Virus record (IMG/VR): IMGVR_UViG_3300036857_000618
Coordinates: 1-27,514 of that record
Direction: 5' to 3' (one strand)
Origin: a virus
DNA: 27,514 nt
The notes under the pieces: model-generated
Database searches by the model: none
Told to the model about the DNA's origin: nothing
What the model saw: only the letters and a program-made list of their open reading frames with translations
In this document: positions 4,530-27,514 of the stretch, one piece after another
Numbering within the stretch: position 1 is the stretch's first letter
Layout: every line of letters starts with the position of its first letter
Position numbers and translations under genes: made by a program

Positions 4530-4531
4530 GC

Positions 4532-10000: not shown

Positions 10001-10141
10001 GCATTTGCGTCAAAGGCGGTCAGCAAGATGGACTACCTGGGTGGATACAGCTACACGCTGGCGGACTTCGAGGCCGCGCAAAAGCGGACCGGCCACCACG
10101 AGAAGAGGGAAGCCCGTGCCACCGCGCAGCAGGCGAGTTGA
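7079..10141 (+). CDS. Portal protein fused to MuF head-morphogenesis domain and PD-(D/E)xK-like C-terminal domain
   Basis: A 1020-residue fusion from GTG 7079 (GGGGAG just upstream). Residues about 1-420 are an HK97-type portal, the dodecameric DNA channel of the capsid vertex, with the WIMKSVDAIAGHASRLPFQL and VPESILGYASEKTYANAEQE stretches. A Pro/Gly-rich linker (about 428-482) leads to a helical region and the MuF/SPP1-gp7 core (RKDERVRPTHKEADGQ, about 711-726; ETWGCRCKLNW, about 754-764). A connector HVPGTPFKYRHGW follows. The C-terminal domain has a helix YEALFEQHVAGLL and D911-x8-E920-L-K922, the PD-(D/E)xK nuclease pattern. MuF domains are known carriers of C-terminal toxins in prophages; I infer a virion-borne nuclease effector. 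Confidence 0.85.
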   Translation: MARRFLPTLRGRSPRLETATAASELERKIVLADYFAALSAAGVHSNGQARPWPVERAVAEAYERIVWIMKSVDAIAGHASRLPFQLKKGEKPVDDHPLYAVLNGQANPMETGQQFRKRLSQQILLSKRGAFVELTRSRGGEIIRMDLLPPGRTCPVPGNGQELIKNYEVVRQDGSKRTIETENVRWFRDPHPLDPYSGVTPLESAGLSVELDFFSRLYNVNFLKNDARPGGVLAIEGEMGEPEMDRIERKFDKGPGAAGKLSVINGEVSYIDLAARPREMQYSTTSITAKIELLAAFGVPESILGYASEKTYANAEQEELNFWRITMPPHLAMLAAGFDVDSEDDLDSGFDISDVEVLHKTEIARRQEARDEFDRGLISATEYRDIAGYDAVDNPKARALFIASNGKTIVPANGKDADELDAAAQQAAPGAPGGPGGPPPPGGPEGGPPPPGPAEGDSGAPDGVPAPSANGGPPPPAGGLVTAEAGRPALRVVPSDETKQDGDGPEAVYETDPRTQESLEMALNAVLTALVARLLERSASRASSPKARKGTRHWQPSYAVDTRVGNKAVNASGAVDEQRWQAEAESAVQPILKAAAATIGTGLISGLALSLPPAALTAATAKAVQEIVEMVGEAFQKLAGQVTALVRSADQSGKPMEEIVTSIRAMGPSLTRWAAIIGTQAATAAVSSVQNAVALAAWLEEPDRQIVRQWRSRKDERVRPTHKEADGQIRPLGEPFDVGGGPLHFPGDPKGAPAETWGCRCKLNWRSKASGRYVPKPAVEATRLATRRKRRMTDRKALVLRLERKGVSHHHVPGTPFKYRHGWEPIREEDVPSNRRFAVRPDDARRSQGQTRSNFIHPVTHHAMGKSEVGDTYEALFEQHVAGLLTERYGNPPYQAIAKAEGTGSRTTALDFSVDHRGGELKSLSAATPNQKTAIKREEVVRKEAAVAEAGLEPLLIVQVVDQQNMSVKVYAFDAFASKAVSKMDYLGGYSYTLADFEAAQKRTGHHEKREARATAQQAS

Positions 10142-11399: not shown

Positions 11400-14300
11400 G
11401 TGCAACCGGTCGCTACGCCTGATGGCCTGGAGTACAAGGCGAGCACGGCCGGGCCCGACTCGGGGTTGCTCGACGCCGACGATGAGACCGGCGTGGTCGA
11501 GGCGATCGTTTCGGTCACCGGGGTCGAAGACGACGTCGCGGACATCATCGAGCCGGGGGCGTACGCCAAGACGCTGGCCCGTCGGCGTCCCAAGGGGATC
11601 TTCGTCCACGACTGGAGCAAGTGGGTCGCACGCACCGAGATGATCGAGGAGCTGCTCCCCGGCGATAAGCGACTCCCTCCCAAAACTAAGACCGGCCAGC
11701 CGTGGCCACAGGGCGCGGGCGGGCTGTATGTGCGGGCGCGTTTCAACCTCAACACCCCCGAAGGAAAGTCCGCGTACGAGAACGTCAAGTTTTTCTCGGC
11801 GACCGGCGAATGCGACTGGTCGGTTGGCTACAAAGTGCCCAAGGGCGCCGGGGTGCGCACCAAGGACGGCAAGCGCCGCATCAAGGAGATGGATCTCTAT
11901 GAGTATTCCCCGGTGCTGTTCGGCGCGGCGCCACTGTCTGGCACGCTCAGCGTAAAGACCGCCGACGCCACTGTGGAGGCCGAGGCACCCGACGTCGACT
12001 GGGACGACGTGGAGTTGCTGGCCGCCGCCGTAGAGACCGCCCTGGAGGAGTCCGGGCGGCCCGAAGGCGAACCCGCCCCGGAGGGCCCGCCGGACCCCGC
12101 TCCGGAGCCGGAGAGCGACGACTCCGAGGAGGACGACCCCGAGGCGACGCTGTACGCCAGCGAGACGGGCGGCGAATCCGAGCCCGAGGATGAGCCCGCC
12201 GAAGAGGACGGCGAAGGGGACGACGCCCCCCCCAACGTCACCCCCGAGGCGGAACCGCAACAGACAGAGTCCCCCGACGTCGAGCCCGCCATTGACGAGC
12301 CCGCCGACCCCGAGGGAAAGGCGGGAGGCCCGCCGTTCAAAAACAAGCAGCCCAAGTCCGGATCCGGCGCGAGCGCCGAGACGATGGACGGCAAGTACAA
12401 GATCACTGACGTCGCTTCGCTGAAGAACGCGATCAAGGCGTGCGGTGGCGCATCTGGTGATCAGTCCAAGTTGCGGGCCCACATCATGAAGCGGGCGTTT
12501 GCGCTGAACCGGCCGGACCTTATTCCAGACAATTGGAAGAAGACCGACTCGGGCAGCAAGGACGACGATACGGAAGGACTGGAGACAAAGCGCGACTTCT
12601 CCACCGACCGGCGTAAGAAGCTGGCCAAAGAAGGCGCGGCTCTTCCCGATGGGTCTTATCCGATCAAGACTGTTGAGGATCTTAGGAACGCGATCAGCGC
12701 GTTCGGCCGGGCCAAGCCAGAGGACCGAGACAAGGTCAAGGCGCACATCATCAAGCGGGCGCGGGCGCTCGGTCACCCCGAGCTGATTCCAGATGGGTGG
12801 GCCAGCAAGGACTCCGAGTCAAAGGTCTTCATGCCCTCGCTTCACCCACGCGACCAGCAGGGTCGTTTCGCCGTTGTTGGGCGATCCGGCATGAAGATTG
12901 GCGAGTTGCCGAACTCGTATTTCACGCCGAAGCCCTCGGGGGACGTCACGGTTGCCTCGCTGCGTCGGGGCGACGTTATTGATTATTTCGGCAGGCCGCA
13001 CATGGTGATCAGGAAGCCCAGGCCTGATCCTGACGAGCCGGGGGACGAACTCGCGCTCTGGATGGCCGCGCTGGACGACTCTGGGAAACCAGGCATGCGG
13101 GACCAGTACTTCTTCCGGCCCAAGGAGAAGTTGCGGCGGATCGCCGAAAAGAAGAACGACGCTGACCTGACGATTGAGAACAAGCTCACCCACGAGCCGC
13201 TCGACCGCAGCCCGAAGAAGAACTGGGTGGAGATGGCGGGGCAGTTGCCCGCCTACATCCAGCACATCGCCAAGGACATCCACGAGGAGAAGGGCGTCCC
13301 GCTGGACGTGGCTATCCCCACGGCGATCGCGGCGGTGAAGCGCTGGGCAGCCGGGGGCGGCAACGTCAACCCGGACACCCGGGCCAAGGCGGCGGCGGCG
13401 GTGGCCGAGTGGGAGGCGCTCAAGGCAAAATCGCACGCTCGGTCGGCGGCGCGTGAGGTTGTACGTGCATCCAAGGAGCTGCCCGAGACGATCGAGTCCG
13501 AGATCTACCCCTACCTGCCCGGCACGCTGGAGGAACTGCGTGAGCGCATCGCGGCCACAGCGGCCAAGGAGTTTGTGCCCGATGCGGCGGAGCCGGGCGA
13601 TCACCTCGTTGACGTGGTCGGGACGTGGTCCGATCGGGTGGTCGTCACTCACTACGACCTAAAGGAGGGCGGGCCTCCCAACGCGTACGAGATCCCTTAT
13701 CGACTCTCTGACGATGACGTCGTTGATCTCGGCGACCCAGAGCCGGTCATCCTCAGCGTAACCGTCGAGGGAGAGGAAGACCACGGCGAGCAGCTCTCGC
13801 CGTACCCGGCCCTGGTCGACTCGATCGTTGCGGGTGTTAAGGCCGAGCTGGCCGGGTCGCCGGAAGACAAGGCCGGGCGCGTACTCAGCGGGGTAAACGC
13901 TAACCGCCTGAGGGCGGCCGTCGAGCAACTCGTGGTGGTGCTCAAAGCGGCGGGCATTGAGATCAACGAACCGGAGAAGGACGACGGGGAAACAGAGCCG
14001 GAGCCTGCCCAAACGCAGGATTCCACGGCGCCCTCGGCGCGGGTGGGCGATGAAATAGTCCCGGCCGGGAAGGTGGTCATCGAGCCGTCCCTAGTGGCTC
14101 GCGCGTACCGGATCATGGGCGACGCGGCAAGCCTGCCACTCGGCCTCGCTCACACGGAATCAAAGGTCGGGTGGGATCCCAAAAAGCACCCCCGTGACCG
14201 CGATGGGAGGTTTATCCAAGTCGGGTCTATGGTTCACCTTCCCGGCACAGCAGAGAACGGCGTCGTCACCGGCCCCGGCGATAAACCGGGAACGGTGAAC

Positions 14301-15128
14301 GTCAACCTGGCGGATGGGTCGGGGCGGGTGGAAGCGAAGCCCTCGGACCTGCTCATCACGCGAGACGCCCCCTCTCCGAAAACTAGGGGAGGGAGTTACG
14401 ACCCGGTCGACACCCATCTTCAGCTGCAAAACATCCTGGCCTACGCGAAGTACGGCAACGATCCGTCGTTCTGGGATACCTCATCCAAAAAGCCGACGGT
14501 TACAACCCCCCCGAAAAAGCCTCAATTGCCCGATGACCCCACCATCCGGATGCTGATCCGGCGGATCGACAGGTACGGCCTGGACGAGGTTCGACGGCAG
14601 GCTGATCGAGAGTTCGGCGAGGAGGAAAGCAAGAATCGCCGCAAGCAGGTCGAAGAGGCGGCGGCGTGGATCAAGAAAAACCGGCCGCCCGCAAAGGAGT
14701 CGCCGCCGAGCGAACTCCCGAGTCTCCTTTCCAGGCTGGCGGACACTGGCGGATTCTCCTGGAGCCCGAACACCGGGAAGGCACCCAAGGACGGCTACAT
14801 GGTCGCGTTGACTGGGCACACGGTGCAGTTCGACAAGAGCCTCCTCGACGACCCCGACAAGGCTGCGGACGCGATCGTCGATTACATCCACTTTAATCGC
14901 GACCTCTTCAGCACGAATCGCGAACTTTACGTCGGTGGATGGATTGAGGGCGGTAAACTCTGGTTGGAGCCTTCTGAACGGATCGAAGGTCGTGAGGACG
15001 CGATCAAGGCCGGTAAGGAGCGGGACCAGATCGCCATCTTTGACGTCGCGGCAGGTGACGTTATTGAAACGGGAGGTAAGGGTGGCTTCCTCGAAGAAGA
15101 ACCAGCCGGTTCTGGCGCGCCTTCCTGA
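11400..15128 (+). CDS. Prohead protease polyprotein (HK97 S78-type) with multiple appended domains
   Basis: GTG 11400 follows AAGGGGG at 11387-11393. Residues 1-185 are an HK97-family prohead protease with His70 (GIFVHDWSKW) and Ser141 (GECDWSVGYK). An acidic linker (about 190-315) leads to two related helical repeats (about 329-380 and 415-465, each ending in R-P/H-x-LIPDxW, DUF6582-like from memory). Next come HPRDQQGRF (482-490), a beta domain, a helical KKNWVEMAGQLPAYIQH domain (about 606-680), a variable region, WDPKKHPRDRDGRF (925-938) with a KOW-like beta segment, and a C-terminal domain starting near 1107 (TGGFSW ... VGGWIEGGKLWLE). Typical proteases of this family are 200-300 aa. Self-processing into several virion proteins is inferred. 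Confidence 0.85.
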   Translation: MQPVATPDGLEYKASTAGPDSGLLDADDETGVVEAIVSVTGVEDDVADIIEPGAYAKTLARRRPKGIFVHDWSKWVARTEMIEELLPGDKRLPPKTKTGQPWPQGAGGLYVRARFNLNTPEGKSAYENVKFFSATGECDWSVGYKVPKGAGVRTKDGKRRIKEMDLYEYSPVLFGAAPLSGTLSVKTADATVEAEAPDVDWDDVELLAAAVETALEESGRPEGEPAPEGPPDPAPEPESDDSEEDDPEATLYASETGGESEPEDEPAEEDGEGDDAPPNVTPEAEPQQTESPDVEPAIDEPADPEGKAGGPPFKNKQPKSGSGASAETMDGKYKITDVASLKNAIKACGGASGDQSKLRAHIMKRAFALNRPDLIPDNWKKTDSGSKDDDTEGLETKRDFSTDRRKKLAKEGAALPDGSYPIKTVEDLRNAISAFGRAKPEDRDKVKAHIIKRARALGHPELIPDGWASKDSESKVFMPSLHPRDQQGRFAVVGRSGMKIGELPNSYFTPKPSGDVTVASLRRGDVIDYFGRPHMVIRKPRPDPDEPGDELALWMAALDDSGKPGMRDQYFFRPKEKLRRIAEKKNDADLTIENKLTHEPLDRSPKKNWVEMAGQLPAYIQHIAKDIHEEKGVPLDVAIPTAIAAVKRWAAGGGNVNPDTRAKAAAAVAEWEALKAKSHARSAAREVVRASKELPETIESEIYPYLPGTLEELRERIAATAAKEFVPDAAEPGDHLVDVVGTWSDRVVVTHYDLKEGGPPNAYEIPYRLSDDDVVDLGDPEPVILSVTVEGEEDHGEQLSPYPALVDSIVAGVKAELAGSPEDKAGRVLSGVNANRLRAAVEQLVVVLKAAGIEINEPEKDDGETEPEPAQTQDSTAPSARVGDEIVPAGKVVIEPSLVARAYRIMGDAASLPLGLAHTESKVGWDPKKHPRDRDGRFIQVGSMVHLPGTAENGVVTGPGDKPGTVNVNLADGSGRVEAKPSDLLITRDAPSPKTRGGSYDPVDTHLQLQNILAYAKYGNDPSFWDTSSKKPTVTTPPKKPQLPDDPTIRMLIRRIDRYGLDEVRRQADREFGEEESKNRRKQVEEAAAWIKKNRPPAKESPPSELPSLLSRLADTGGFSWSPNTGKAPKDGYMVALTGHTVQFDKSLLDDPDKAADAIVDYIHFNRDLFSTNRELYVGGWIEGGKLWLEPSERIEGREDAIKAGKERDQIAIFDVAAGDVIETGGKGGFLEEEPAGSGAPS

Positions 15129-15414: not shown

Positions 15415-15574
15415 CGGGCCGGGCGAGACGTAAGCGAAACGCGTCCCCTATGGTACCCATCGATCGGGACGTCCCGGTGCTGACCGGGCGGACGACAACC
15501 ACCACCCCAGCAACGTTCGCGGCCCCGCCAGCCGAGTGCTGAGCCGTGGCCGCCGTCCGCCAAAGGAAAGCACC

Positions 15575-16897
15575 ATGCCCACGGATACGGGGCGCCTGAA
15601 GGAGCTGAACAAGGCCCTCCAGGCCAAGGCCAGCGAGATCGACGATCTGGCAAACGGCTGGAAGGACGAGACCGGCGAGGGCCACTTTGTCGTTTCCACC
15701 GAACAGCGTGACGCCTACCTCAAGGCCATCAGCGAAGCCGAGGAGATCAAGAGCCTCGTCGTCGCCGAGGAGAAGGCGCGCAACATCCACGAGTTCCTCC
15801 AGCAGCCCGAGCCGGGCTCGGAGGGCGGCCACGAAACCGCCGAGACCGGGCGCGAGCTCCGCCGGAGCATCAAGACGCTCGCCGAGGCGTACCTGGAGTC
15901 GGACGCCTACCGCGAGATGAAGGCGGGCGGGTTCCGCAACTTCGGCCAGATCGCGACGTTCGATACCGGGCTGACCGGGTTCTCCCAGAAGGACGTCTAC
16001 AGCGACATGGCCGGGACCATCCCGATCAACGCGCTCGGCACGCCGCAGAACCTCGGCCTCACCCCGCGCATGTTGCGCCCCGGTCGGGTCCGCGATCTCT
16101 TCCCGGCGGAGACGACCAGCGCGAATCTGCTCTACGGCATTCGCGAAAGCGGCTTCACCAACAACGCCGCCATCGTCTCGGAACGGCGCGCGGCCGACGG
16201 CACCAGCGTGCCGACCGGCGGTGCGACGGACGTGTTCGGACTGAAGCCCAAGAGCAACATCAGCTTCACGACGATCACGTACCCCGTAGCCACCGTAGCC
16301 CACATCCTCTATGCCCACCGCAACACCCTGGACGACGAGCCGCGCCTGCGCGGGTTGATCGACCGGGACATGATCGACGGCATCAAGATGGTCGAGGACG
16401 AGCAGATCCTCTACGGGGACGGCGTTGGCGACAACCTCACCGGGATCATCAACACCCCCGGGGTCCAGACCTACACTGGCCTGTCCTCGGACCCGCGCAC
16501 TGCGCAGATCCGGCGCGCGATGACGCGGGCGATCCTGGCGTACTTCACCCCGACCGGTGTCGTGGTCCACCCGCTCGACTGGGAAGACCTGGAGCTGGAG
16601 CAGGACAACAACGGTGCCTACCGGCTCGCGGTCAACATCGCGGTCGGCGGCGAGCAGCGCATGTGGCGCATGAACGTCGTCGACACCCCCGCCATCACGG
16701 AAGGGCAGTACCTCCTCGGCGCGTTCGGCACTGGGGCGAAGCTGTACGACCGTGAGCAGGTGAACATCCAGGTGAGCACGGAGAACCGCGACCTCTGGGA
16801 GAGGAACGCCGTGACCTTCCGTGCCGAGGAACGCCTGGCCGTGACTGTAGATCGCCCGGAGAGCTTCGTCGTCGGAGCGATCACCACACCGGCGTAA
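15575..16897 (+). CDS. Major capsid protein (HK97 fold)
   Basis: ATG 15575 is preceded by AAAGGAAAG at 15562-15570; an upstream in-frame start at 15536 lacks an SD. The 440-residue protein has a charged helical N-terminal delta/scaffold domain (about 1-105; LKELNKALQAKASEIDDLAN, FLQQPEPGSEGGHETAETGR). The HK97 shell fold follows: an N-arm, an E-loop (ESGFTNNAAIVSERRAADGT), then the P and A domains (LYGDGVGDNLTGIINTPGVQ is the hallmark G-x-G-x2-x2-GI motif). The delta domain is normally removed by the upstream protease. A terminator follows. Confidence 0.92.
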   Translation: MPTDTGRLKELNKALQAKASEIDDLANGWKDETGEGHFVVSTEQRDAYLKAISEAEEIKSLVVAEEKARNIHEFLQQPEPGSEGGHETAETGRELRRSIKTLAEAYLESDAYREMKAGGFRNFGQIATFDTGLTGFSQKDVYSDMAGTIPINALGTPQNLGLTPRMLRPGRVRDLFPAETTSANLLYGIRESGFTNNAAIVSERRAADGTSVPTGGATDVFGLKPKSNISFTTITYPVATVAHILYAHRNTLDDEPRLRGLIDRDMIDGIKMVEDEQILYGDGVGDNLTGIINTPGVQTYTGLSSDPRTAQIRRAMTRAILAYFTPTGVVVHPLDWEDLELEQDNNGAYRLAVNIAVGGEQRMWRMNVVDTPAITEGQYLLGAFGTGAKLYDREQVNIQVSTENRDLWERNAVTFRAEERLAVTVDRPESFVVGAITTPA

Positions 16898-16977: not shown

Positions 16978-18693
16978 GTGCCCCCCCACTGGATTCCCGG
17001 TCGTGGACGCAAGGGCCCTTGGGTCGCCACGCTGTCGAACGTGCATGAACTTCAGTGGCGCCTTGGGCGGGTGGCGCTGACGGCGAGACCCCGGCGCGCA
17101 ATCATCCGGGTCACCGAGAGCAAGGTCGTCCGCCGGATCCCGTGGGATCCTCGGTTGCACCCACGGGATCCGCACGGCCAGTTCGCCACCACCGGCTCGA
17201 CGGGGCAGCACCACATCGAGCTGGGGACACCGGGGCGCACGCTCACGGACCGGGAGTACGAGGAGCACGCCAAGGAGATCGAGACGCAGATCGCCGCCGC
17301 GCTCAAGGCGGGCCTGGTCACCAACAAGATGTACACGCTGGGCGGCGACGGCATTACCTACACGCCTGAGCGCGCCGCGCAGCAGAAAGAAGTCGTCGAT
17401 GAGCTGCTCGACAAGTACCGGAACGTCCCGGCCGACGGCAAGGCGATCATCTCTGGCGGACTCGGCGGTGCCGGGAAATCCACGGTGCTGAGCCAATTCG
17501 CGGGCGTGGATATGTCGCAGTACGCGGTGGTCAACCCCGACGACATCAAGGAGCTGATGGTCCAGCACGGCATGGCCCCCGAGGTGCCCGGCCTGACCCC
17601 GATGGAGGCCGCCACGACCTTCCACGAGGAGTCGACGTTCATCGCCCAGACGTTCCTGTCCGCGCTTCTGGGGCAGCGCAAGAACATCATTTGGGACGGC
17701 TCGATGTCGTGGATGCCGTGGATGGACGAGAACCTCGACAAGATGAGGAAGGCCGGATATAGGGACATCGGCGCCGTCTTCGTTGACATTCCGGTGCAGA
17801 ACTCGGCCGACCGGGCACTCAGCCGCTGGCGAGAGGGCCTGGAAATGTATCGCCGGGGCGAAAGCGTTCTGGGAGGCAGGTACATGCCGCCCTCAGTGAT
17901 CAAGCGCAACGCGACCAAGGACGGCAGCAGCGTCAACCGGAAGAACTTCGAGGTGCTCAAGCCAAAATTCGACTCGTGGGAGCTCTGGGACAACTCGGTC
18001 TGGGGCCGGGACCCGGTGGAGGTCGCCAGCAGCCATCCTCGTGGCCGCGCGCTGCCCACGGCCAAACGGGATGTGACGGTTCTGCCCCGGCTGGGGGCAC
18101 ATCCGTTCGGTCAGACGTGGCAGGAAGACCCGGACCGAACGCATCGCGCCGACGGTTTTTGGGCCAAGTCGTACAAGGGCATGCACACCATCAAGACCGC
18201 CTACCGAAACCGTCGCGCCGGGCGCGACCCGCTCGATGGCATGCCGGACGATGTCCTGCAACGACGGTTCAAATACGATCTGCTGCATCCCGGCAACGGC
18301 AACGACAACAATGGCTACACGCTGGACTCGCTCAAGGCTGACATCGAGTCGGCGGTCGACAACATCGATCAACGCCTGGCGAACGCCGATGTCCGCACCA
18401 CGCGGCTGTACCGGGGGTTCCGCACCGACAACCTCTTCACCGTCGGCGAAGAGTTCGACGTCGACCTGGCGTCCTGGACCGAGGACAAGGACTGGGCTGC
18501 CTACTACGCGGGCAAGCAGGACGATCTCAGCGTCGGGAAGTACCCGGTCATCATGCGGATGCAGGGCAAAAAGCACAGCGTGCCGGTCGGCGCGCTAGTG
18601 CACCAGAGGGAGCATCTCGCGCGGGGCCGCTACCGCGTCGTAAAAGCCTACAAGCGGGGGATGTATCAAGTCGTCGTTGTGGAGGAGCTGTGA
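16978..18693 (+). CDS. Double toxin: zeta-type kinase plus R-S-E ADP-ribosyltransferase, with HPRD cargo motif
   Basis: The start is uncertain: GTG 16978 touches the terminator, while GTG 17041 and 17071 are alternatives without a clear SD. Residues 56-69 carry WDPRLHPRDPHGQF. About 145-340 is a zeta-toxin P-loop kinase: Walker A GGLGGAGKS with K167, N186-P-D-D189-I-K, and the FHEESTFIAQTFLSALLG helix before IIWDGS. Zeta toxins phosphorylate UDP-N-acetylglucosamine. The C-terminus is an R-S-E-class mono-ADP-ribosyltransferase: LYRG with R479, S499-W-T, then Q543-R-E545 in HQREHLARGRYRVV. The position directly after the capsid gene suggests packaging and injection, like phage T4 Alt. Targets are unknown. 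Confidence 0.85.
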   Translation: MPPHWIPGRGRKGPWVATLSNVHELQWRLGRVALTARPRRAIIRVTESKVVRRIPWDPRLHPRDPHGQFATTGSTGQHHIELGTPGRTLTDREYEEHAKEIETQIAAALKAGLVTNKMYTLGGDGITYTPERAAQQKEVVDELLDKYRNVPADGKAIISGGLGGAGKSTVLSQFAGVDMSQYAVVNPDDIKELMVQHGMAPEVPGLTPMEAATTFHEESTFIAQTFLSALLGQRKNIIWDGSMSWMPWMDENLDKMRKAGYRDIGAVFVDIPVQNSADRALSRWREGLEMYRRGESVLGGRYMPPSVIKRNATKDGSSVNRKNFEVLKPKFDSWELWDNSVWGRDPVEVASSHPRGRALPTAKRDVTVLPRLGAHPFGQTWQEDPDRTHRADGFWAKSYKGMHTIKTAYRNRRAGRDPLDGMPDDVLQRRFKYDLLHPGNGNDNNGYTLDSLKADIESAVDNIDQRLANADVRTTRLYRGFRTDNLFTVGEEFDVDLASWTEDKDWAAYYAGKQDDLSVGKYPVIMRMQGKKHSVPVGALVHQREHLARGRYRVVKAYKRGMYQVVVVEEL

Positions 18694-18822: not shown

Positions 18823-19086
18823 GTGACCCACGTCAAGGAGCTGCTTTCGGACCTCGCCGACGGCACGGTCACCCTCGATCAGGTCGCGCGGGACTTCGCG
18901 CGGCGGGACTGGCCGATTCTGTCCCCGGCGCCGACCGACTACGAAGCGGCGGTCGAGCGAGAGCTGCGCGACGCTGAGCCGTACCCCGAAGACTCATGGG
19001 GCGAGGTGATGGAGGCCTACTCCGTCGGGACGATCACAGACGGGCAATACCGGGCGCTCTTCGCGGCCCGCCAGCGGCGGGCGTAG
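18823..19086 (+). CDS. Small hypothetical protein, 87 aa
   Basis: GTG 18823 is preceded by GGGGGGCGAG. It is acidic and helical. The N-terminal KELLSDLADGTVTLDQVARD and the C-terminal EVMEAYSVGTITDGQYRALF show two similar 'xxG-T(V/I)T-(L/D)-xQ' turns, suggesting an internal duplication of a helix-turn-helix-like unit. It ends the capsid/toxin transcription unit, ahead of the tandem hairpins at 19166-19316. Either a head-completion factor or a toxin partner would fit; neither is proven. Confidence 0.6.
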   Translation: MTHVKELLSDLADGTVTLDQVARDFARRDWPILSPAPTDYEAAVERELRDAEPYPEDSWGEVMEAYSVGTITDGQYRALFAARQRRA

Positions 19087-19972: not shown

Positions 19973-20326
19973 GTGACTACCATCGTTGTCCGCGTGCTGG
20001 GTCGCGACGTTCTTGAGCTGACGTTCAGGGGCGCCCCGCAGGACTCGCCGGAAGCCGCTCCCGAACCCGAGCGACTCCTGGGGTTCTCCGGCGGGGCCAT
20101 CGTTCAAGCGGAGCGCTCGTGGCTGGACACGAACGACGACATGGCGGTGAATGCCCGTGAGCCTGGCCATCGACGCGCCTTCGGTTTCGGTTTCGAAAGG
20201 GACGTCGCCACTGGTCGGGACCTAGACTTGCACCCGTGCCTTGGACCCCTTCCGTCGGCGCGATCGGCCTCACCTCCGCCTACGGCTGGGCCTCGGTCAT
20301 CACCGCCGTTGGGCAGTTTGCCCTGA
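19973..20326 (+). CDS. Hypothetical protein, 117 aa, apparently leaderless
   Basis: GTG 19973 has no SD but a TACGGT -10 eight bases upstream. The N-terminal half reads like a small beta-strand protein (TTIVVRVLGRDVLELTFRG), followed by an acidic Pro linker and FGFGFERDVATGRDLDL. The last 90 bases overlap the next gene in another frame and are low-complexity Pro/Ser, so the natural product may be shorter or the 3' end may have drifted. The protospacer matched by the array (20194-20227) lies in its 3' part. Function unknown. Confidence 0.45.
   Translation: MTTIVVRVLGRDVLELTFRGAPQDSPEAAPEPERLLGFSGGAIVQAERSWLDTNDDMAVNAREPGHRRAFGFGFERDVATGRDLDLHPCLGPLPSARSASPPPTAGPRSSPPLGSLP
20194..20227 (-). 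other. Protospacer matched by array spacer 27335-27368
   Basis: The minus strand here equals the array spacer at 32 of 34 positions; mismatches fall at spacer positions 24 and 31. The identity starts and stops exactly at the spacer edges. On the matching strand the 5' flank plus the first base reads AAG, the canonical type I-E PAM. It covers the end of the 19973 ORF and most of the TAGACT -10 of the 20236 gene. Confidence 0.85.
20223..20228 (+). promoter_or_regulatory. -10 box for leaderless gene
   Basis: TAGACT ends seven bases before GTG 20236; no SD is visible, which predicts a leaderless mRNA. Five of the six bases lie in the protospacer. Confidence 0.45.
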
Positions 20327-20736
20327 CCGATCCCGCTCCGTTCACACACGCGCTCGTCGTGCTGGACGGCCAGACAGCCATGGAGCCGTGGCCGAACGGC
20401 GCCCGGCATGTGAGCCTGGCCGATTTTGATGACTTCCCGATCACCTACATAACTCCGTCGTTGAACGACCACGAGCGAAGCGCCGTAGCGGCGGCTGCGC
20501 GGTCCCTGGACGGCGTGCCATACCGGGTGCGGGATTACCAGGCGCTGGCGTTGTGGCGGCTCGGATGGCACGGCAAACGAGTCGGCCGTACGGTCGCCGA
20601 CTCCCGATATCTACTCCCGGGCCAGTTCGTCGCGGAGACATACCGGCGCGCCGGGCGTCCGCTGTTCGACGATGCCATGGATGTGACCGTCGGGGACCTC
20701 GGAACATTGCTGATACAGGGGCTGCTATCCCGCTAG
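20236..20736 (+). CDS. NlpC/P60-like (YiiX/DUF830-type) fold protein lacking the catalytic cysteine
   Basis: GTG 20236, apparently leaderless. The 166-residue protein shows the papain-like amidase layout of the YiiX branch: FTHALVVLDGQ with the His, EPWPNGARHVSLADF, then YRVRDYQALALWRLG, and LLPGQFVAETYRRAG. In active relatives the last segment reads C-S-x-F/L-V; here the Cys-Ser is Pro-Gly, and the protein has no cysteine at all. It is therefore probably inactive as a peptidase and may bind peptidoglycan or lipids. Its stop is tail-to-tail with the GntR gene, both stops sharing one CTAG. Confidence 0.6.
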   Translation: MPWTPSVGAIGLTSAYGWASVITAVGQFALTDPAPFTHALVVLDGQTAMEPWPNGARHVSLADFDDFPITYITPSLNDHERSAVAAAARSLDGVPYRVRDYQALALWRLGWHGKRVGRTVADSRYLLPGQFVAETYRRAGRPLFDDAMDVTVGDLGTLLIQGLLSR

Positions 20737-21497
20737 GACAGCAGCTTTCCCTCGCGCAGATCAACGTGAAAGCGCGGCTGATAGCGGGTGGAGTCGGCCA
20801 CGATGATCCGGTACTCGACGGAATTGCCACGGTCGTCGAACGTTGTCCGCCGTTCGATGAACACCACTCCAGCGCGCGGGCGGAACTCGGCCAGCTCTTC
20901 GGTGGTGGCCGAGCGCGTGGTGTACCTGAAATCGGCCGTCGCGGGCCGGTGCCCGAGCGCGGTAAGCGCTCCGTATGTACCGCCGTGGACCTTCCCGGGC
21001 CGCGCTAGCGGGGTGCCCTGGACGAGGGAGTAGGGGTACCACGCGGTCGAGACGCCGACCGGGACGTCGTCGATATGCAGCTGGCGACTGCGCCGGACGC
21101 TGGAGCGTGATCCGGCGGGCAGCCCCAGCGCCTCTGCCGCCTCGTCGCTCGCCTCCTCGCGCGCAACTTCGATTGGCACCATGTTGCCGTTCACTCCCGC
21201 CGCCGCGCACGCGGTCTCCCATGGCCCTGCGCTGCCGCCCGGCTCCAGTACCTCGCGGAAGCTGTTGAACTGAATCGGGACGGCGCGCCAGTCCTGAACT
21301 ACGGTGCCTCGGCGCCTTACCCGGCGTACCAGGCCCTCGCGCTCCAGCACGCCGAGCGCGGATCGCACGGTCTCGATGGCCACGCCGATGTTTGCTGCCA
21401 ATATGTCGATCTTGGGAAGCGTGTCGCCCGGCTGCCAAAGTCCCGCGTATATGTCGTCGCGGAGCCTGGCCGCCAGCTCCTGGTACTTCGCAACCAC
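20733..21497 (-). CDS. GntR-family (UTRA/HutC type) transcriptional repressor
   Basis: Start GTG 21497 with GGTGAT as SD; GTG 21506 and TTG 21509 are alternatives. Residues about 1-66 form the GntR winged helix (AKYQELAARLRDDIYAGLWQ, PGDTLPKIDILAANIGV, TVRSALGVLEREGLV, RRRGTVV). Residues about 95-250 are a UTRA effector domain (SRQLHIDDVPVGVSTAWYP, ending VADSTRYQPRFHVDL). Palindromic TAGATC/GATCTA sites at 21515-21528 and 21564-21571 lie between this gene and the divergent operon, predicting autorepression and control of 21623-22083. The UTRA domain suggests a small-molecule signal. Confidence 0.8.
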   Translation of the reverse strand: MVAKYQELAARLRDDIYAGLWQPGDTLPKIDILAANIGVAIETVRSALGVLEREGLVRRVRRRGTVVQDWRAVPIQFNSFREVLEPGGSAGPWETACAAAGVNGNMVPIEVAREEASDEAAEALGLPAGSRSSVRRSRQLHIDDVPVGVSTAWYPYSLVQGTPLARPGKVHGGTYGALTALGHRPATADFRYTTRSATTEELAEFRPRAGVVFIERRTTFDDRGNSVEYRIIVADSTRYQPRFHVDLREGKLLS

Positions 21498-21514
21498 AAT
21501 GATCACCAATCGGT

Positions 21515-21571
21515 TAGATCCAGATCTATTGACAGACCCGCCTAACCCCAGCTACGTTTCCTCTAGATCTA
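21515..21571 (+). promoter_or_regulatory. Promoter with two GntR-type operators
   Basis: TAGATC-CA-GATCTA (21515-21528) abuts a perfect -35 TTGACA (21529-21534). The -10 TACGTT (21553-21558) follows after 18 bases. The palindrome TAGATCTA (21564-21571) covers the expected start site. A repressor bound at both would block the promoter and the divergent gntR start. Confidence 0.7.
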
Positions 21572-21622
21572 TTCCCTTGACCATACAGGGCATGTACTTA
21601 CCTCCCTCAGGAGGGGTCGCGT

Positions 21623-21778
21623 ATGGACATCATCGACGTCACATGGGGTGCGAGGGTTTGCCTCGGGTGTTTCGTGATGTGGGGGTTTGAGCAGGGTCTG
21701 AGGTGTTGGTGGTGCGGACGGCCGGGGCTGACCATCGCCCAGTACGAGGCCCGCGAGCCGGTGACGGTGAACGCATGA
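21623..21778 (+). CDS. Cys/Trp-rich small protein, 51 aa
   Basis: ATG 21623 with a strong SD AGGAGGGG (21609-21616). The 51-residue product has two Cys-rich hydrophobic runs (VCLGCFVMWGF and LRCWWCGRPG), giving C-x2-C and C-x2-C, a possible zinc ribbon. Its stop overlaps the next start (ATGA 21775-21778), so the pair is coupled and jointly controlled by the GntR promoter. No family recognised. Confidence 0.65.
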   Translation: MDIIDVTWGARVCLGCFVMWGFEQGLRCWWCGRPGLTIAQYEAREPVTVNA

Positions 21779-22083
21779 CGATCATGACGGGCTTGACGCA
21801 CGGCGAGATCGCGATCGCTCTGTACGCCGCCGAGGCGGTCACCGGGGTGTCGTTGTCGGCCGATGCCATCGAGGCGTTGCACACACTGGGCGTGTCCCGC
21901 CTCGGCGGCGCCGGGCAGCTTCGGCGCCTCACCGAGGAGATGCGGCGCTGGGATCACCTCGTTCTTGATGGCCTTCTGACGGCCGACGAACACGAGATCT
22001 TGGTACGGCATCGCTGGCCTGACGAGGTCCGCTTCGACTGGTGCTTTGGGCTGGCGGCCCGGTACGAGCCGTCCATGAGCTAG
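21775..22083 (+). CDS. Hypothetical protein, 102 aa, GntR-controlled
   Basis: ATG 21775 overlaps the previous stop by four bases. The protein is helical and soluble: GEIAIALYAAEAVTGVSLSA, EALHTLGVSRLGG, then a basic helix and DEHEILVRHRWPDEVRFDW. No catalytic motif is clear. A hairpin (22088-22127) terminates the operon. Coupling to a tiny Cys-rich protein under a GntR repressor resembles a regulated accessory cassette, perhaps superinfection or defence-related, but there is no direct evidence. Confidence 0.65.
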   Translation: MTIMTGLTHGEIAIALYAAEAVTGVSLSADAIEALHTLGVSRLGGAGQLRRLTEEMRRWDHLVLDGLLTADEHEILVRHRWPDEVRFDWCFGLAARYEPSMS

Positions 22084-22087
22084 CGGT

Positions 22088-22127
22088 CGGGGGTCCCGCC
22101 CACTGGGGTGAGCGACCGGGGCCCCCG
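22088..22127. terminator. Bidirectional hairpin between convergent genes
   Basis: Arms CGGGGGTCCCG (22088-22098) and CGGGGCCCCCG (22117-22127) pair over 11 bp with one wobble. It lies between the plus-strand operon ending at 22083 and the minus-strand gene ending at 22139, so it can serve both. No T tract. Confidence 0.5.
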
Positions 22128-22138
22128 CCGCTGCTTCG

Positions 22139-22318
22139 TCAGCCAGAGAAGACCGGGTGGTTGGTCAGACTGAGCGCGATGTCCGACAACACGTCTCCCA
22201 CACTGACGCTGACGTTCGTCTTGGGGCCGTTGCCGGTCACGTCAGCCTGCGCCGCACTGCCGCCAGCGAACAGCATGAATCCTGTGATCGCGGTGAGCGC
22301 CGTCATCTTGCGGATCAT
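22139..22318 (-). CDS. Small secreted protein, 59 aa
   Basis: Minus-strand ATG at 22318 with the SD GAGAGGGG. Residues 1-25 are a Sec signal peptide (MIRKMTALTAITGFMLFAGG, then SAAQA as the cleavage site). The mature 34 residues (DVTGNGPKTNVSVSVGDVLS and onward) are small, polar and end in a hydrophobic stretch, like short secreted peptides of filamentous actinobacteria. A minus-strand -10 candidate TAAGTT lies at 22345-22350. The strand opposite to the phage genes and the host-like character may mark an inserted or moron gene. Confidence 0.6.
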   Translation of the reverse strand: MIRKMTALTAITGFMLFAGGSAAQADVTGNGPKTNVSVSVGDVLSDIALSLTNHPVFSG

Positions 22319-22365
22319 GATTTCCCCTCTCGTTGGTGAGGGGGAACTTAGTGCGCACGGCCTGT

Positions 22366-22371
22366 TACGGT
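22366..22371 (+). promoter_or_regulatory. -10 box for leaderless gene
   Basis: TACGGT ends six bases before GTG 22378; no SD. It predicts a leaderless transcript of the peptidoglycan-binding protein. Confidence 0.45.
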
Positions 22372-22377
22372 CCGCGC

Positions 22378-23268
22378 GTGCGAAGACTGACCCTGGCCAC
22401 GGACGTAAAGACGGCTCCCTGGGACTCGTCCGAGCACCCGCGTGGGCAGGGCGGCAAGTTCAGCAAGAAGAGCGAATCGACTCAGCGCGGCGACAAGGGC
22501 GAAAACGTCAAGGCCTTGCAAGAGGCCCTCAACAAGCTCGGTGCCAAGCCGCCGCTCGCCGTTGACGGTGTGTTCGGGCCGAAGACCGAGGCCGCGCTCA
22601 AGAGCTTCCAGGGCCAGTGGAACATCGACCTGTCGGGCAAGGTGGACAAGGACACCAGCGAGGCACTCTCACTCGCGGTCGACGCGGAGGGCTCGGTCAA
22701 GAAGCCCAAGGGCAGCAGCAGGGGGTCTTCCGGCAGCCGTACGTCCGGCTCGGGCGGCGGAAAGGCCAAGCCTAAGCGCCGGTCCAGCTCGGCCACGACA
22801 CGGCGGCTGGCGGCCGAACGGCGCGCTGTGGGGGCATCCTCAGGGTCGAGCTCCCGATCGGGCACGGGCAAAACTACCCGGAAGATCAGCAAGACGACCA
22901 ACCCCGCCAAGGAACCCGCCAAGGATTCAGCCACCAAGCCGACCCCCGCGACCACGTTGCAGCAGTGGAAGCTCCAACAGCAGGCGGCCGACCGCAAGGC
23001 CGGGTTCGCCGACGCCACTGTGGGCCAGGTGAAGGCAGGCGATCAGGTCGTCTACTACGCCAACATCGGCGGCATCGACGCCCGGGTCAAGGGCACGGTC
23101 GCGGATGTACAGGGCGACCGGCTTTGGTTCGCCGCCGGGTCCGGGTACGCCACCGTGAACGGCAAGACCGGCACGTACAAGGTCGGCGGGTGGGTGAGCT
23201 TCCCGCCCAAGGGCAAAGTGATGCGAAAGCCGGGGAAAGCGGCGTCCCCGGCAACAGCGGCTGCCTAA
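22378..23268 (+). CDS. Peptidoglycan-binding protein with HPR cargo motif
   Basis: GTG 22378, apparently leaderless. Residues 15-28 are WDSSEHPRGQGGKF, the same motif as in the protease polyprotein and the double toxin. About 36-100 is a PG_binding_1 domain (GDKGENVKALQEALNKLGAK, VDGVFGPKTEAALKSFQ). A long Ser/Lys/Arg/Gly-rich disordered region (about 103-195) follows. A beta-barrel-like end (about 215-285; VGQVKAGDQVVYYAN, VADVQGDRLWFAAGSG) completes it. No hydrolase domain is seen. The role is likely cell-wall binding by a virion-associated or secreted protein; the basic linker could hold DNA inside the head. Confidence 0.7.
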   Translation: MRRLTLATDVKTAPWDSSEHPRGQGGKFSKKSESTQRGDKGENVKALQEALNKLGAKPPLAVDGVFGPKTEAALKSFQGQWNIDLSGKVDKDTSEALSLAVDAEGSVKKPKGSSRGSSGSRTSGSGGGKAKPKRRSSSATTRRLAAERRAVGASSGSSSRSGTGKTTRKISKTTNPAKEPAKDSATKPTPATTLQQWKLQQQAADRKAGFADATVGQVKAGDQVVYYANIGGIDARVKGTVADVQGDRLWFAAGSGYATVNGKTGTYKVGGWVSFPPKGKVMRKPGKAASPATAAA

Positions 23269-23271
23269 GCT
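23266..23271 (+). promoter_or_regulatory. -10 box for leaderless gene
   Basis: TAAGCT overlaps the stop of the previous gene and ends eight bases before ATG 23280; there is no SD. Confidence 0.4.
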
Positions 23272-23279
23272 CGGCCGGT

Positions 23280-23471
23280 ATGAGGCTACCCACCTGGGCC
23301 ATCGTGTCGATGATGATCACCGTGCCACTTGGCACCGCCTTCGGCTGGTACCTCGGGATCAGCGTCATCGCACCGCGCCTCAGCGAGCGAGGTCTGTGGC
23401 TGGCCGTCGCGGCGCTGGCCGTAACCGTCGCCGCCTTGCTCGGCGTCGCGGTCCGGCTGCTTTCGAAGTGA
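23280..23471 (+). CDS. Small two-TM membrane protein, 63 aa
   Basis: ATG 23280, apparently leaderless. Two membrane helices: about residues 6-30 (WAIVSMMITVPLGTAFGWYL) and 41-60 (LWLAVAALAVTVAALLGVAV), joined by a charged loop (APRLSERG). The C-terminus ends RLLSK. The topology would suit a holin or superinfection-exclusion protein, but no endolysin is adjacent. It is tail-to-tail with the minus-strand FkbM gene 26 bases away, with no hairpin between. Confidence 0.6.
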   Translation: MRLPTWAIVSMMITVPLGTAFGWYLGISVIAPRLSERGLWLAVAALAVTVAALLGVAVRLLSK

Positions 23472-23497
23472 CTGCTGCACAGGGGCGGATCAGAAGC

Positions 23498-24127
23498 CTA
23501 GGTTGCCACCAGCCAGAAGTGGTTCGACTCACCCCACGACCCGGGCGGGTAATGCGGGTGCCGCACAGCGCGAAGCCGATCTCCGTATGCGTTCCCGATC
23601 ATCTGCCGGATGCGCCAGCCAAGGTCGGCGTTGTGGACCTCGATGAACAGCTGTGGCTTGCGCTCGATGATCGTTCGCAGGCCGCCGAGCACCACGAGCG
23701 CGTCGTGCCCCTCGACGTCGACCTTAATGAAGTCGGGAGTGCCGTGCCGTTCGGCCAGGGTGTCGAGGGTCGCGCCGGGCACGGTCCGCCGGTCGAGGAT
23801 CTTTCCCCAGTCCTGCCCGTCGGCGTTCGCCGAGGTGAGCTGCCCCTTGGCGATGTGGGCGTCCTGCACGGTGAGGGTGACTGGGCCGTCCATGCCCGTG
23901 ACGGCGGTCTGCACGGCCGTGGCGTTGGGGAACTTCTCGGCCGCCTTGGCGAGCAGCCCAAACGACTCGTCCGCCGGTTCGAAGCTGACCACGTGATCAA
24001 ACCTGGAGGCGAAGACGCGCAGCGACTGGCCCACGTTGCCGCCAACGTCGAACGCCAGGCACCCGGTGAACCCATCCATGATCTTCGCGATCTGGGGCGG
24101 GTCCGGGGCGGCGACTTGCTGTATCAC
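23498..24127 (-). CDS. FkbM-family methyltransferase
   Basis: GTG 24127 follows AAGGAGG and overlaps the upstream stop (GTGA). Length 209 aa. The Rossmann SAM-binding motif is LAFDVGGNVGQSLRVF (about residues 26-41). The acidic strand-2 end VVSFEP and the family hallmark FIKVDVEGHDALVVLGG are present, and the C-terminal QLFIEVHN completes the core. FkbM enzymes O-methylate sugars and other hydroxyls. It is the last gene of a four-gene decoration operon with a glycosyltransferase and a sulfotransferase-like protein. The natural substrate is presumably a glycan on virion or cell-surface components. Confidence 0.85.
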   Translation of the reverse strand: MIQQVAAPDPPQIAKIMDGFTGCLAFDVGGNVGQSLRVFASRFDHVVSFEPADESFGLLAKAAEKFPNATAVQTAVTGMDGPVTLTVQDAHIAKGQLTSANADGQDWGKILDRRTVPGATLDTLAERHGTPDFIKVDVEGHDALVVLGGLRTIIERKPQLFIEVHNADLGWRIRQMIGNAYGDRLRAVRHPHYPPGSWGESNHFWLVAT

Positions 24128-24510
24128 TTGGCCTCCTTGCGGATCTCCTCGGGCAGCCGCAACTCGACGCCGAGCGTGATCGAAAGCCGCGCCACCGCAT
24201 CCTCGGGCGCACGGACAAGATCTTCGTATGACATCAGTAGCGGGTCGAGCGCTCTCAGCGCCTCCAGGGCGTGCTCTCGGCGCTGTTCGGCGTCGAGCTC
24301 GTCCCGGGCGTGCCCCGCCGCTATTGCCGAGGCGATCGTGGCCGCCCGGTCCCTGACGATCATCACGATATGATCGTGATCGACATCGGCAGGCCCCCAC
24401 CACCAGCCGCCGTGCGGCATCGACCGGTGCTCGGCGTCCGCACCGGTCGCTACGATCCGGGCAAGTAGCCGGGTTCCGCTGGACTCTGGGCCCGTGCACA
24501 GAACCCTCAA
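24124..24510 (-). CDS. Sulfotransferase-like P-loop protein
   Basis: TTG 24510 is preferred because it overlaps the upstream stop (TTGA), has GGAG upstream, and places the first strand at the N-terminus; GTG 24537 is the alternative. The 128-residue protein has VLCTGPESSGTRLLARI, resembling the 5'-phosphosulfate loop of PAPS sulfotransferases. HIVMIVRDRAATIASAI, matching the 3'-phosphate segment, and a late LMSYEDLV follow. It is short for the family (usually 250 or more aa), so it may be a minimal variant. It is coupled to both neighbours by 4-bp overlaps. Confidence 0.65.
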   Translation of the reverse strand: MRVLCTGPESSGTRLLARIVATGADAEHRSMPHGGWWWGPADVDHDHIVMIVRDRAATIASAIAAGHARDELDAEQRREHALEALRALDPLLMSYEDLVRAPEDAVARLSITLGVELRLPEEIRKEAK

Positions 24511-25667
24511 CGCGGTGCGCTCCAGTCGGCGACCCACTGCTCCAGGGACTCCAGCGCGGGCTTCCAGTTCTCGACGAGAACCTTGTCGGCGTCGTAGCCC
24601 AGCGCGAAGTCACGGGCCCGCGCCGACCGCTTGGCCGCTTCGCCGTCGTAAGCCTTCACCAGCGTGCGGGTCAAGTGATCGACGTCCGGGGCCATCCACC
24701 AGGCCTGGTGCATCGGCACCCAGTAACGGTGGCCGCGCACCCTCCACCCGGCACCGGTCAGCTCGGACATGGCCGAGCAATCGGTGGTGATCACCGGCAC
24801 GCCGCAGGCCTGCGCTTCGAGGATGGGTAGGCCGAACCCCTCGCCGTAGCTGGCGTTGCTCACCACGTCGCAGCAGTTGTAGAGACCGGCCAGATAGGCG
24901 GGCGTGAGCATCCCGCTCGTGTAGGCGTACTGGTCGGAGAACCGTACGGCGTCGGCGATCCCCAGGTCGGCGATCAGCGGCGTCAGGTCCATCCCGAACG
25001 GTGACTTGACCTGGCTGTGCACCAGCAGCACCGCGTCGCGGTGGCGGCGATGCAGCCGGGCGAACGCCTCGAACTGCTGAGGGAACGCCTTCCGGCTCGG
25101 GTCCTTGCCTCGGTTGGCCGCGTTGATGCCGACCACGAAGGCGTCGCGCGGGATGGCCATCTCGTCGCGCAGCGAGGCGCGGTCCTCGTGCGGCCGGAAC
25201 GTGTCCACATCCACAGCGTGCGGCACGTAGAGGGCATTGTGCCCGGCATCAATAAGCTGCTGGTGCCCGAACCGCGACATGGCGATCGGGAGAGCGTGGG
25301 ACCGCTTCAGCCAGCCGTGGTCCATCGCCGAGAGCGGTTTGGTGTCGACCGGCATCCAGCTCGCCGTCGGCACCTGCGCGACGATCTCCGGCGAGAGCAC
25401 CCACACGTCGGTGAGTGTGATCACCACCCCCGGCTCGCTGTCGAAGTGCAGCGCGGCGCGCTCGGCGTACACGTCGTTGTTGTAGGTGTCCTGGCCGCCG
25501 GGGAGGACGGTCAATCCGTTCCATTCGACGGGCTTGCCCTGAAGGCCGATGAACGCCGAGATCACGACGTCGTGGCCGAGCGCGGCGATGCGTGGCGCGA
25601 ACAGCGCGGTCTGCTGACCATAGCCTGTCGTCGTCCAGGGGCTGTTCGCGTGCCAGACGATCTTCAC
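24507..25667 (-). CDS. Glycosyltransferase family 4 (GT-B)
   Basis: GTG 25667 overlaps the previous stop (GTGA); in-frame sequence further upstream is a shadow of that gene. Length 386 aa. The N-terminal Rossmann domain begins VKIVWHANSPWTTTGYGQQT with a Gly-rich acceptor loop. The C-terminal donor-binding domain has VVGINAANRGKDPSRKAFPQ and the GT4 signature SYGEGFGLPILEAQACGVPV (E-x7-E), which binds the nucleotide-sugar diphosphate. Actinophages are known to carry glycosyltransferases that modify virion proteins. Here it leads a cluster with sulfo- and methyl-transferases, so a decorated glycan is inferred. Confidence 0.88.
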   Translation of the reverse strand: MKIVWHANSPWTTTGYGQQTALFAPRIAALGHDVVISAFIGLQGKPVEWNGLTVLPGGQDTYNNDVYAERAALHFDSEPGVVITLTDVWVLSPEIVAQVPTASWMPVDTKPLSAMDHGWLKRSHALPIAMSRFGHQQLIDAGHNALYVPHAVDVDTFRPHEDRASLRDEMAIPRDAFVVGINAANRGKDPSRKAFPQQFEAFARLHRRHRDAVLLVHSQVKSPFGMDLTPLIADLGIADAVRFSDQYAYTSGMLTPAYLAGLYNCCDVVSNASYGEGFGLPILEAQACGVPVITTDCSAMSELTGAGWRVRGHRYWVPMHQAWWMAPDVDHLTRTLVKAYDGEAAKRSARARDFALGYDADKVLVENWKPALESLEQWVADWSAPR

Positions 25668-25942
25668 TGGCTTACCTCGTCGTAAGTCGCCCGGAAGATC
25701 GTGTCGCGGACCGGATAGAACTCGCCCTGGATCCCCTGCACGATCCAGTCCCCAATCTGCGCCGTCATCTCGCCCTCCAGTGTCACGATCGCGAACCGCT
25801 GGTCGGGAGTGCCGGACTGCGTCACCACGGCCGAGCCGCCAGATTTGCCGATCCAGTCGATCACCGCGCCGGAGTTCATCCCACTCCAACGCATGGCTGA
25901 GATCTCAACGGCCCGTTTGTGGTACCTCTTCGGGGAATGCAC
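25664..25942 (-). CDS. Conserved small phage protein (GDWIVxGxxGEFYPV type)
   Basis: GTG 25942, first gene of the decoration operon; there is no SD, but a minus-strand TAGCGT -10 ends six bases upstream. The 92-residue sequence matches a widespread small phage family. It opens YHKRAVEISAMRWSG, has LEGEMTAQIGDWIVQGIQGE in the middle, and closes FYPVRDTIFRATYDEV. The function of this family is unknown despite its abundance. Its stop overlaps the glycosyltransferase start, so it is translated with the operon. Confidence 0.75.
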   Translation of the reverse strand: MHSPKRYHKRAVEISAMRWSGMNSGAVIDWIGKSGGSAVVTQSGTPDQRFAIVTLEGEMTAQIGDWIVQGIQGEFYPVRDTIFRATYDEVSQ

Positions 25943-25948
25943 GCGGCG

Positions 25949-25954
25949 ACGCTA
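25949..25954 (-). promoter_or_regulatory. -10 box of decoration operon (leaderless)
   Basis: Minus-strand TAGCGT ends six bases before GTG 25942, the same leaderless geometry as four plus-strand genes nearby. The -35 is weak. Confidence 0.4.
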
Positions 25955-25981
25955 GCGACCGCATGCGAGCAAGGTCGCGCT

Positions 25982-26539
25982 GTGAAGTTCGTTCCTGCGT
26001 CCGATCTCGATCTGGTGATGGCGCGGCGCGCCGCGAACATCGTGGACCGTCTCAAACAGGACGTTCAGACCGAGGCCCGACGCCGGGCCCCTGCCGCGAA
26101 GAGGTGGGTTACGCGGCACGACAACCGCGTCCGGCACTGGCACGTGCTCACCAACGGTCAGACGATCCCGGCGAACCTTCGCTACCGGGTACAGCGGGTC
26201 AAGTACCTCCGCAAGGGCAAGGACAAGCACGGCAAGGCGATCAACCCGGCGGGCGGTTGGAAGATCCTCGAAGGGCAGTACGACCTTGGCCGAGCCCCTC
26301 ACGACCCGGCGCTGCCAATCGAGCAGACGATCAACTGCCGCTGTAGGAGTGTGGTCATCCCAGAGCTAGTAGCGCTTTCCATCCACACGACCGTGACCCA
26401 CATTGAGGGCAAACGCGCAGTCGCCGAAATCAACTGCTTCTTCCCCCGGGCGGCCGAGTCCGAATTCGGCACGTCCGAGGACCGACCAGCCCGGTTCATG
26501 CGCGGTGCGATCGAGGAGGTCACTCGCCGCCTCCATTGA
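25982..26539 (+). CDS. MuF/gp10-like minor head or head-tail protein
   Basis: Start uncertain: GTG 25982 (AAGG nine bases upstream) or ATG 25937. From 25982 it is 185 aa. The N-terminal helix bundle is followed by a MuF/SPP1-gp7-like core: WVTRHDNRVRHWHVLTNGQT, then PHDPALPIEQTINCRC, the INCRC signature. The C-terminal third resembles HK97 gp10/minor tail proteins (AEINCFFPRAAESEFGTSED, FMRGAIEEVTRR). It therefore appears to fuse two head-tail-junction elements. It is the last phage gene before the array, and no tail genes follow within the window. Confidence 0.7.
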   Translation: MKFVPASDLDLVMARRAANIVDRLKQDVQTEARRRAPAAKRWVTRHDNRVRHWHVLTNGQTIPANLRYRVQRVKYLRKGKDKHGKAINPAGGWKILEGQYDLGRAPHDPALPIEQTINCRCRSVVIPELVALSIHTTVTHIEGKRAVAEINCFFPRAAESEFGTSEDRPARFMRGAIEEVTRRLH

Positions 26540-26715
26540 TCTGCCAGCCGTCGCCCCCCTTCGTCCGCCAGGCGCGACGTTAGGGAATTGCCCCTTCGGC
26601 GTCGAACTCGCGATCCTGTCGCCCTCCTCTCCGCTACATCCCGAACCCGAACCACGACCCGCCATCCCCTTCTGCAAGCGGATGTGCTGCCATTCCCACC
26701 CCAGACCACCAAGCA
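26540..26715. other. Spacer region between phage gene and array
   Basis: 176 bases with no convincing ORF, promoter or AT-rich leader. A stretch near 26549-26574 (GTCGCCCCCCTTCGTCC) weakly recalls the array repeat, but its distance to the first repeat is not a multiple of the array period. No att-like direct repeat was found. Confidence 0.4.
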
Positions 26716-27514
26716 CTTCCGCCCCCGCGTCCGTGGGCCGGAGGGGGCTGCCGCCGGTCAGTTCCTTGCGCCGGATACCGCCGCCGCCCCCGCGCCCGTG
26801 GGCCGGAGAGGGCATCGGGTGACCGCCGCCATCGGCCTGATTCCGCCGCCCCCGCGCCCGTGGGCACCACCGCTCATGTGCGACGGTGGGTGAACCCGCC
26901 GCCCCCGCGTCCGTGGGCTGGAGCCACGAATGCAATTTGCACAGACGTCGGAGGACCGCCGCCCCCCGCGTCCGTTGGGCCGAAGTGCTGACCACCGCTC
27001 AATTCCCGCCGCCCCCGCGCCCGATGGGCCGGAGAGCAACCCCTGGTGCCGCCGCCCCCCCGCGTCCGTAGGCCGGAGGTCTCGCGCTCTGCCGACGTGA
27101 TCATCGTCGGCCCGCCGCCCCTGCCGCCCCCCGCGCCCGTGGGCCGGAGATGGGCACGACAGCCGACGCACGGGTGATGCTCCCGCCGCCCCCGCGCGCC
27201 CGTGGGCCGGAGGCCCGCCGGGCCGTGATGTTGCGGATGTCGGACCTGCCGCCCCCCGCGCCCGTGGGCCGGAGACCGGCCGGAAGCCGACCACGCTGAT
27301 CCACCCCCGCCGCCCCCGCGCCCGTGGGCCAGAGGTCTAGGTCCCGACCAGTGGCGAGGTCCCTCTCGCCGCCGCCCCCGCGCCCGTGGGCCGGAGGTGT
27401 CCCCGGGCAGAGGTCGTCGCCGGAGAGTCCCGCCGCCCCCCCCGCGCCCGTTGGGCCAGAGGCCCGCTGCACGCCCTCGACGAACTCCCTTGACCGTCGC
27501 CCCCGCGCCCGTGG
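26716..27514 (+). CRISPR. CRISPR array, type I-E-like repeats, 3' end beyond window
   Basis: Fourteen repeats start at 26716, 26781, 26843, 26896, 26956, 27006, 27049, 27121, 27183, 27246, 27307, 27369, 27430 and 27494 (cut by the edge). The consensus is 28 nt: CCGCCGCCCCCGCG followed by CCCGTGGGCCGGAG. It forms a CCCGC-GCCC-GTGGG stem-loop like type I-E repeats. In the right half spacing is 61-64 with spacers of 32-34 nt; in the left half it is 43-72 with spacers of 14-42 nt and indels in repeats. All spacers differ. Plus-strand transcription is favoured by the G-U pair (A-C on the other strand) and by the AAG PAM of the matched protospacer. The more degenerate left end argues the opposite. 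No cas gene is in the window. Confidence 0.85.

Follow-up and report, generated by a model that had tools for sequence, protein, structure and literature searches.

The contig described here stops inside a CRISPR-like array that begins shortly after a phage head gene, which raises the question of whether the array is carried by the phage or belongs to a host chromosome lying next to phage DNA. The window analysed is the whole virus record IMGVR_UViG_3300036857_000618, of 27,514 bases and of linear class in IMG/VR. The first-pass annotation had described a CRISPR array directly adjoining a head gene, and this is borne out by 13 full repeats and a cut unit following a MuF-like gene of full length (MuF2), with 176 bases, as it had counted, between the MuF stop at 26539 and the start of the first repeat at 26716. 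Two readings of about equal weight both stand because the contig ends within the array. The reading preferred here, at a probability of roughly 45%, is that of a degenerate cas-less CRISPR array carried by the phage in a cargo slot between MuF2 and the tail terminator gene. The other is that an array from a host chromosome became linked to phage DNA, through a chimera of assembly or amplification or through a decayed prophage that lost its tail half beside it, the spacer being a record of the host's past encounter with this phage group.

The phage part of the contig is organised around the following genes:

4505–6304, + strand: terminase large subunit (TerL; phrog_2, 5.8e-17; 48% to Streptomyces phage Gilgamesh gp1).
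7079–10141, + strand: portal protein fused to a MuF-like domain (PF04860, 2e-43; PF04233, 5.1e-10).
11400–15128, + strand: prohead protease with a long C-terminal extension (PF04586, 9.7e-9; phrog_80, 1.6e-26).
15536–16897, + strand: major capsid protein (MCP; PF05065, 9.6e-34; 45.6% to Gilgamesh gp53).
25919–26539, + strand: MuF-like minor capsid protein (MuF2), a homologue of Gilgamesh gp61, of full length and with a likely start at 25982.

Phage ORFs of 599, 1020 and 1242 amino acids are unbroken, and the phage part also codes for a zeta-toxin-like kinase, a GntR regulator and a minus-strand glycosyltransferase/methyltransferase block. Homology shows the phage part to be authentic and related to phages of actinobacteria. 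In the left arm, the protein encoded at 1759–2505 on the + strand contains an RNA polymerase alpha C-terminal domain (PF03118, 2.7e-23). Two PADLOC matches were rejected as defence genes, PglW (2e-6) as covering the RNA_pol_A_CTD region and Csa3 (0.0039) as covering the GntR helix-turn-helix.

Relatives were gathered through an MCP alignment search of viral contigs, of which the best 80 of 393 loci were taken, and through a MuF2 alignment search of viral contigs, which gave 77 loci; single-protein searches with MuF2 and MCP found no relatives in the viral contig collection. The closest record among the best 80 of 393 MCP loci (L008; TerL 67%, MCP 66%, portal 54%) lies within a 126,865-base IMG/VR record, and the nearest phages have genomes of about 83–129 kb. 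The phage genes up to MuF2 have homologues in relatives, and the head-tail module of Gilgamesh (MN234216) similarly holds homologues of TerL, the portal-MuF fusion, the protease, the MCP and MuF2. In contrast to the window, Gilgamesh continues after the MuF2 homologue gp61 with gp62, the tail terminator gp63, chaperones and the tape measure, and is without an array. A MuF2 match is present in 31 of the best 80 capsid relatives, 30 of which have a gp63 match downstream, the single exception being a locus that ends 354 nt after MuF2. A tail terminator was likewise found downstream in 31/77 loci of the MuF2 search, the other 46 being for the most part short loci or remote matches to MuF. The spacing between MuF2 and gp63 is 345–462 nt in 24 of the 30 relatives and exceeds 700 nt in the other six (L010, L014, L020, L033, L034 and L037), while in L008 the gp62 homologue starts about 18 nt after MuF2. 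Thus, the gene order in Gilgamesh and the relatives indicates that the array occupies a site where tail genes, sometimes after cargo, are expected, as the first-pass annotation had supposed.

To judge from gene order, cargo appears to shift from one position to another within the head-tail module. In the window the zeta-toxin-like kinase (16978–18693, +) lies right after the capsid gene and is followed by an ORF at 18823–19086 (+); in the L008 record (locus L090, reverse) a 51% kinase homologue precedes the tape-measure gene and the homologue of the 18823 ORF is on the opposite strand. The region 20733–25942, between ORF 20236 and MuF2, holds a GntR/UTRA regulator and the minus-strand block, which comprises an FkbM methyltransferase, a weak sulfotransferase match and a glycosyltransferase; in L008 the homologue of ORF 20236 is directly 5' of MuF2, and the capsid gene is succeeded by a GntR match. 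Two extra genes, encoding proteins of 388 aa and 250 aa, are found between MuF2 and the tail terminator at 15796–17711 of L010, the 250-aa protein being alpha/beta hydrolase-like by eye.

The last part of the window is arranged as follows:

26540–26715, no strand assigned: non-coding C-rich gap of 176 nt, from the MuF2 stop to the first repeat.
26716–27514, no strand assigned: degenerate CRISPR-like array of 13 full 28-nt repeats and a last one truncated where the contig ends.

The full units extend over 26716–27461 and the cut unit, inside which the contig stops, over 27494–27514. The consensus repeat of 28 nt falls within the 28–29 nt length class of the Streptomyces avermitilis type I-E repeats. 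The locus displays several direct repeats and unique spacers of similar length, as a CRISPR does, with degenerate repeats: nine of the 13 spacers measure 32–37 nt and the remaining four 17, 20, 29 and 45 nt, across 364 repeat bases the 13 units diverge from the consensus by 15 substitutions, 13 inserted bases and 3 deleted ones, and no 16-base word is common to more than three successive, correctly spaced units. The array is therefore less regular by far than a healthy type I-E array. The indels are as numerous as the substitutions and many fall in homopolymers, as in a poorly corrected contig end, while the long phage ORFs are unbroken, a pattern that favours the host-array reading. Against this, 9 of the 14 substitutions counted (an ambiguous unit being entered for its sure change only) appear in more than one unit, which random placement equals in 4 of 20,000 trials; the argument is weak if all are transitions, since transitions-only placement gives as many in 1044 of 20,000. 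Because the recurrent substitutions exceed random placement, the repeat variation is probably in part inherited, and context-dependent sequencing error is a possible source of it.

It is improbable that the locus is a GC-rich interspersed repeat of non-CRISPR nature with a chance resemblance to an array. This explanation would fit the low complexity of the repeat, the consensus of which folds no better than its shuffles (z-scores of 0.05 on one strand and -0.26 on the other), the range of spacer lengths from 17 to 45 nt, and the Rfam search, in which two hits far under the gathering score were rejected as an RNA identity for the array. The objection to it comes from one spacer, which matches the phage itself:

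27335–27368, + strand: spacer that aligns to phage sequence elsewhere in the window.
20194–20227, - strand: protospacer of that spacer, identical at 32/34 bases, located 7.1 kb upstream of the spacer and 9 nt before ORF 20236.

The match (E = 3.1e-9) is bounded exactly by the repeats and does not extend into them, and its alignment score of 30 compares with at most 17 in 40 shuffles. Since this 34-nt match runs end to end and stops precisely at both repeat borders, the locus is, on sequence grounds, CRISPR-like rather than a chance repeat, and the spacer appears directed at this phage or a close relative. An origin in a mobile element is thus seen for 1 of the 13 spacers. The proposal of an array aimed at close relatives agrees with this one spacer; none of the other 12 has a window match above its shuffles. 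The carrier's own protospacer copy differs from the spacer at 2 of the 34 bases, and the 22-base protospacer core was found in no other contig of the viral contig collection, in which two spacer cores were scanned for protospacers with 0 matches.

The protospacer is bordered on its 5' side, on the - strand, by CAA, followed by G as the first matched base, giving AAG in a single case in which the G lies inside the 34-nt match. AAG is the PAM reported for the Streptomyces avermitilis type I-E system (PMC4762764), and its presence would suit a spacer of a host type I-E array. As to other features of a type I-E-like array, the repeat consensus forms no hairpin more stable than those of its shuffles, the left side of the first repeat carries no A-T-rich leader, 26540–26715 being 65.9% GC, and PADLOC detected no cas gene in the 20 window ORFs scanned, the right flank of the array lying beyond the contig. 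Under the + orientation the mismatches of the self-match are at bases 24 and 31 of 34, far from the PAM, and the first 23 bases are perfect, so that the array, if functional, might turn on the phage carrying it; that the self-match could kill a phage carrier adds to the case for a host array. In the opposite orientation the match is bordered by TTT, with mismatches at bases 4 and 11, and self-attack would be unlikely. The PAM favours the + orientation, while the left side without an A-T-rich leader and the worn left units do not.

The junction itself bears on both readings. MuF2 (PHROG head morphogenesis match, 1.8e-9) is intact to its conserved end when aligned with three relatives, and the junction contains no N and, in agreement with the first-pass annotation, no integrase or recognisable host gene between MuF2 and the array. 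The join is exactly intergenic; coding sequence makes up 88% of the phage part, so that a break at a random position would more often have fallen inside a gene. A random join of host and phage DNA would moreover need to pair a phage with an array that targets it, and a junction without an integrase also sits poorly with a host array. In the opposite direction, the gap displays a GC skew of -0.362, beyond every sampled 176-nt phage stretch (lowest -0.248); this composition is unlike that of the phage and compatible with host DNA as well as with cargo. A candidate extra repeat-like unit in the gap, at 26548–26571 (9 edits), was dismissed as chance, 86 of 300 shuffles being equally good.

The search for further arrays of this kind also weighs towards a host array. 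The comparison with relatives that the first-pass annotation had proposed yielded no comparable array in the 167 further loci retrieved, some of which overlap on one contig, using a word-based finder that detects the array of the window; L074 contains one short three-copy repeat at word length 12. Against 30 whole relative records the array gave, among the matches listed, short scattered matches only (best E 0.002), and blastn returned partial, chance-like matches from 50,697 phage records (best E 0.02) and 72,556 plasmid records (best E 0.002). The repeat had 0 matches in the viral contig collection, as 22-nt and 20-nt patterns, and 0 in the genome collection, as two patterns, exact or lightly degenerate, in collections that may omit records very near the window. 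A limited search of the open-licence literature turned up no earlier description of an array like this one from these phages.

An array-bearing phage is not new in kind, since virus-borne mini-arrays acting through host Cas proteins have already been described (PMC6858448; reviewed in PMC11656645). A close parallel is provided by the Saccharolobus portogloboviruses SPV1 and SPV2, which, as presented in PMC6858448, share with the window a cas-less intergenic array, a spacer directed at the virus group that carries it and a protospacer of their own that matches imperfectly. They differ in that here 13 spacers, degenerate repeats and a bacterial tailed phage are involved, no leader was found and the far flank lies beyond the contig. 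The viral mini-arrays described in PMC6858448 hold 1–2 spacers, and the leaderless phage mini-arrays reported there target relatives and spare their carrier. Huge phages, according to PMC7162821, carry arrays with a median of six repeats, some of them cas-less and possibly dependent on host Cas. Those without interference genes are similarly phage-linked, with no cas in view and a spacer against a phage, but share repeats with a host, whereas here the repeat has no match in the genome collection and a genome fragment only is available. The S. avermitilis type I-E arrays (PMC4762764) are alike in the AAG found beside the one protospacer, and differ from the array of the window, with its irregular spacers, degenerate repeats, inconstant base after the repeat, no A-T-rich leader seen and no cas genes.

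These comparisons add to the evidence that disfavours a phage-borne array, as 13 spacers would be long for a cas-less viral array and are host-like, and a + orientation self-match with AAG would be at odds with virus-borne spacers that spare their carrier. The contig stops within the array and shows no tail gene past it. Nevertheless, the intact MuF2, the intergenic join, a slot that varies among relatives and a spacer directed at this group of phages suggest that the array is carried by the phage. It would then have been acquired from a host array by recombination, any crRNA would depend on Cas proteins of the host both for its production and for its action on related phages, and its later decay would reflect a phage without adaptation genes. 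An unlikely, more specific proposal is that a long leaderless cas-less array lends its spacers to host Cas and so excludes close relatives, with decay or orientation limiting self-attack. An inter-phage conflict system is no more than possible.

If the array belongs to a host, the contig records a join or a prophage remnant and cautions against calling contig-end arrays phage-borne. If it is phage-borne, it would be a longer and more degenerate relative of the known cas-less virus-borne arrays and would add to them a long example from a phage of actinobacteria, and the interval between MuF2 and the tail terminator would be a specific insertion site in which to look for more arrays.
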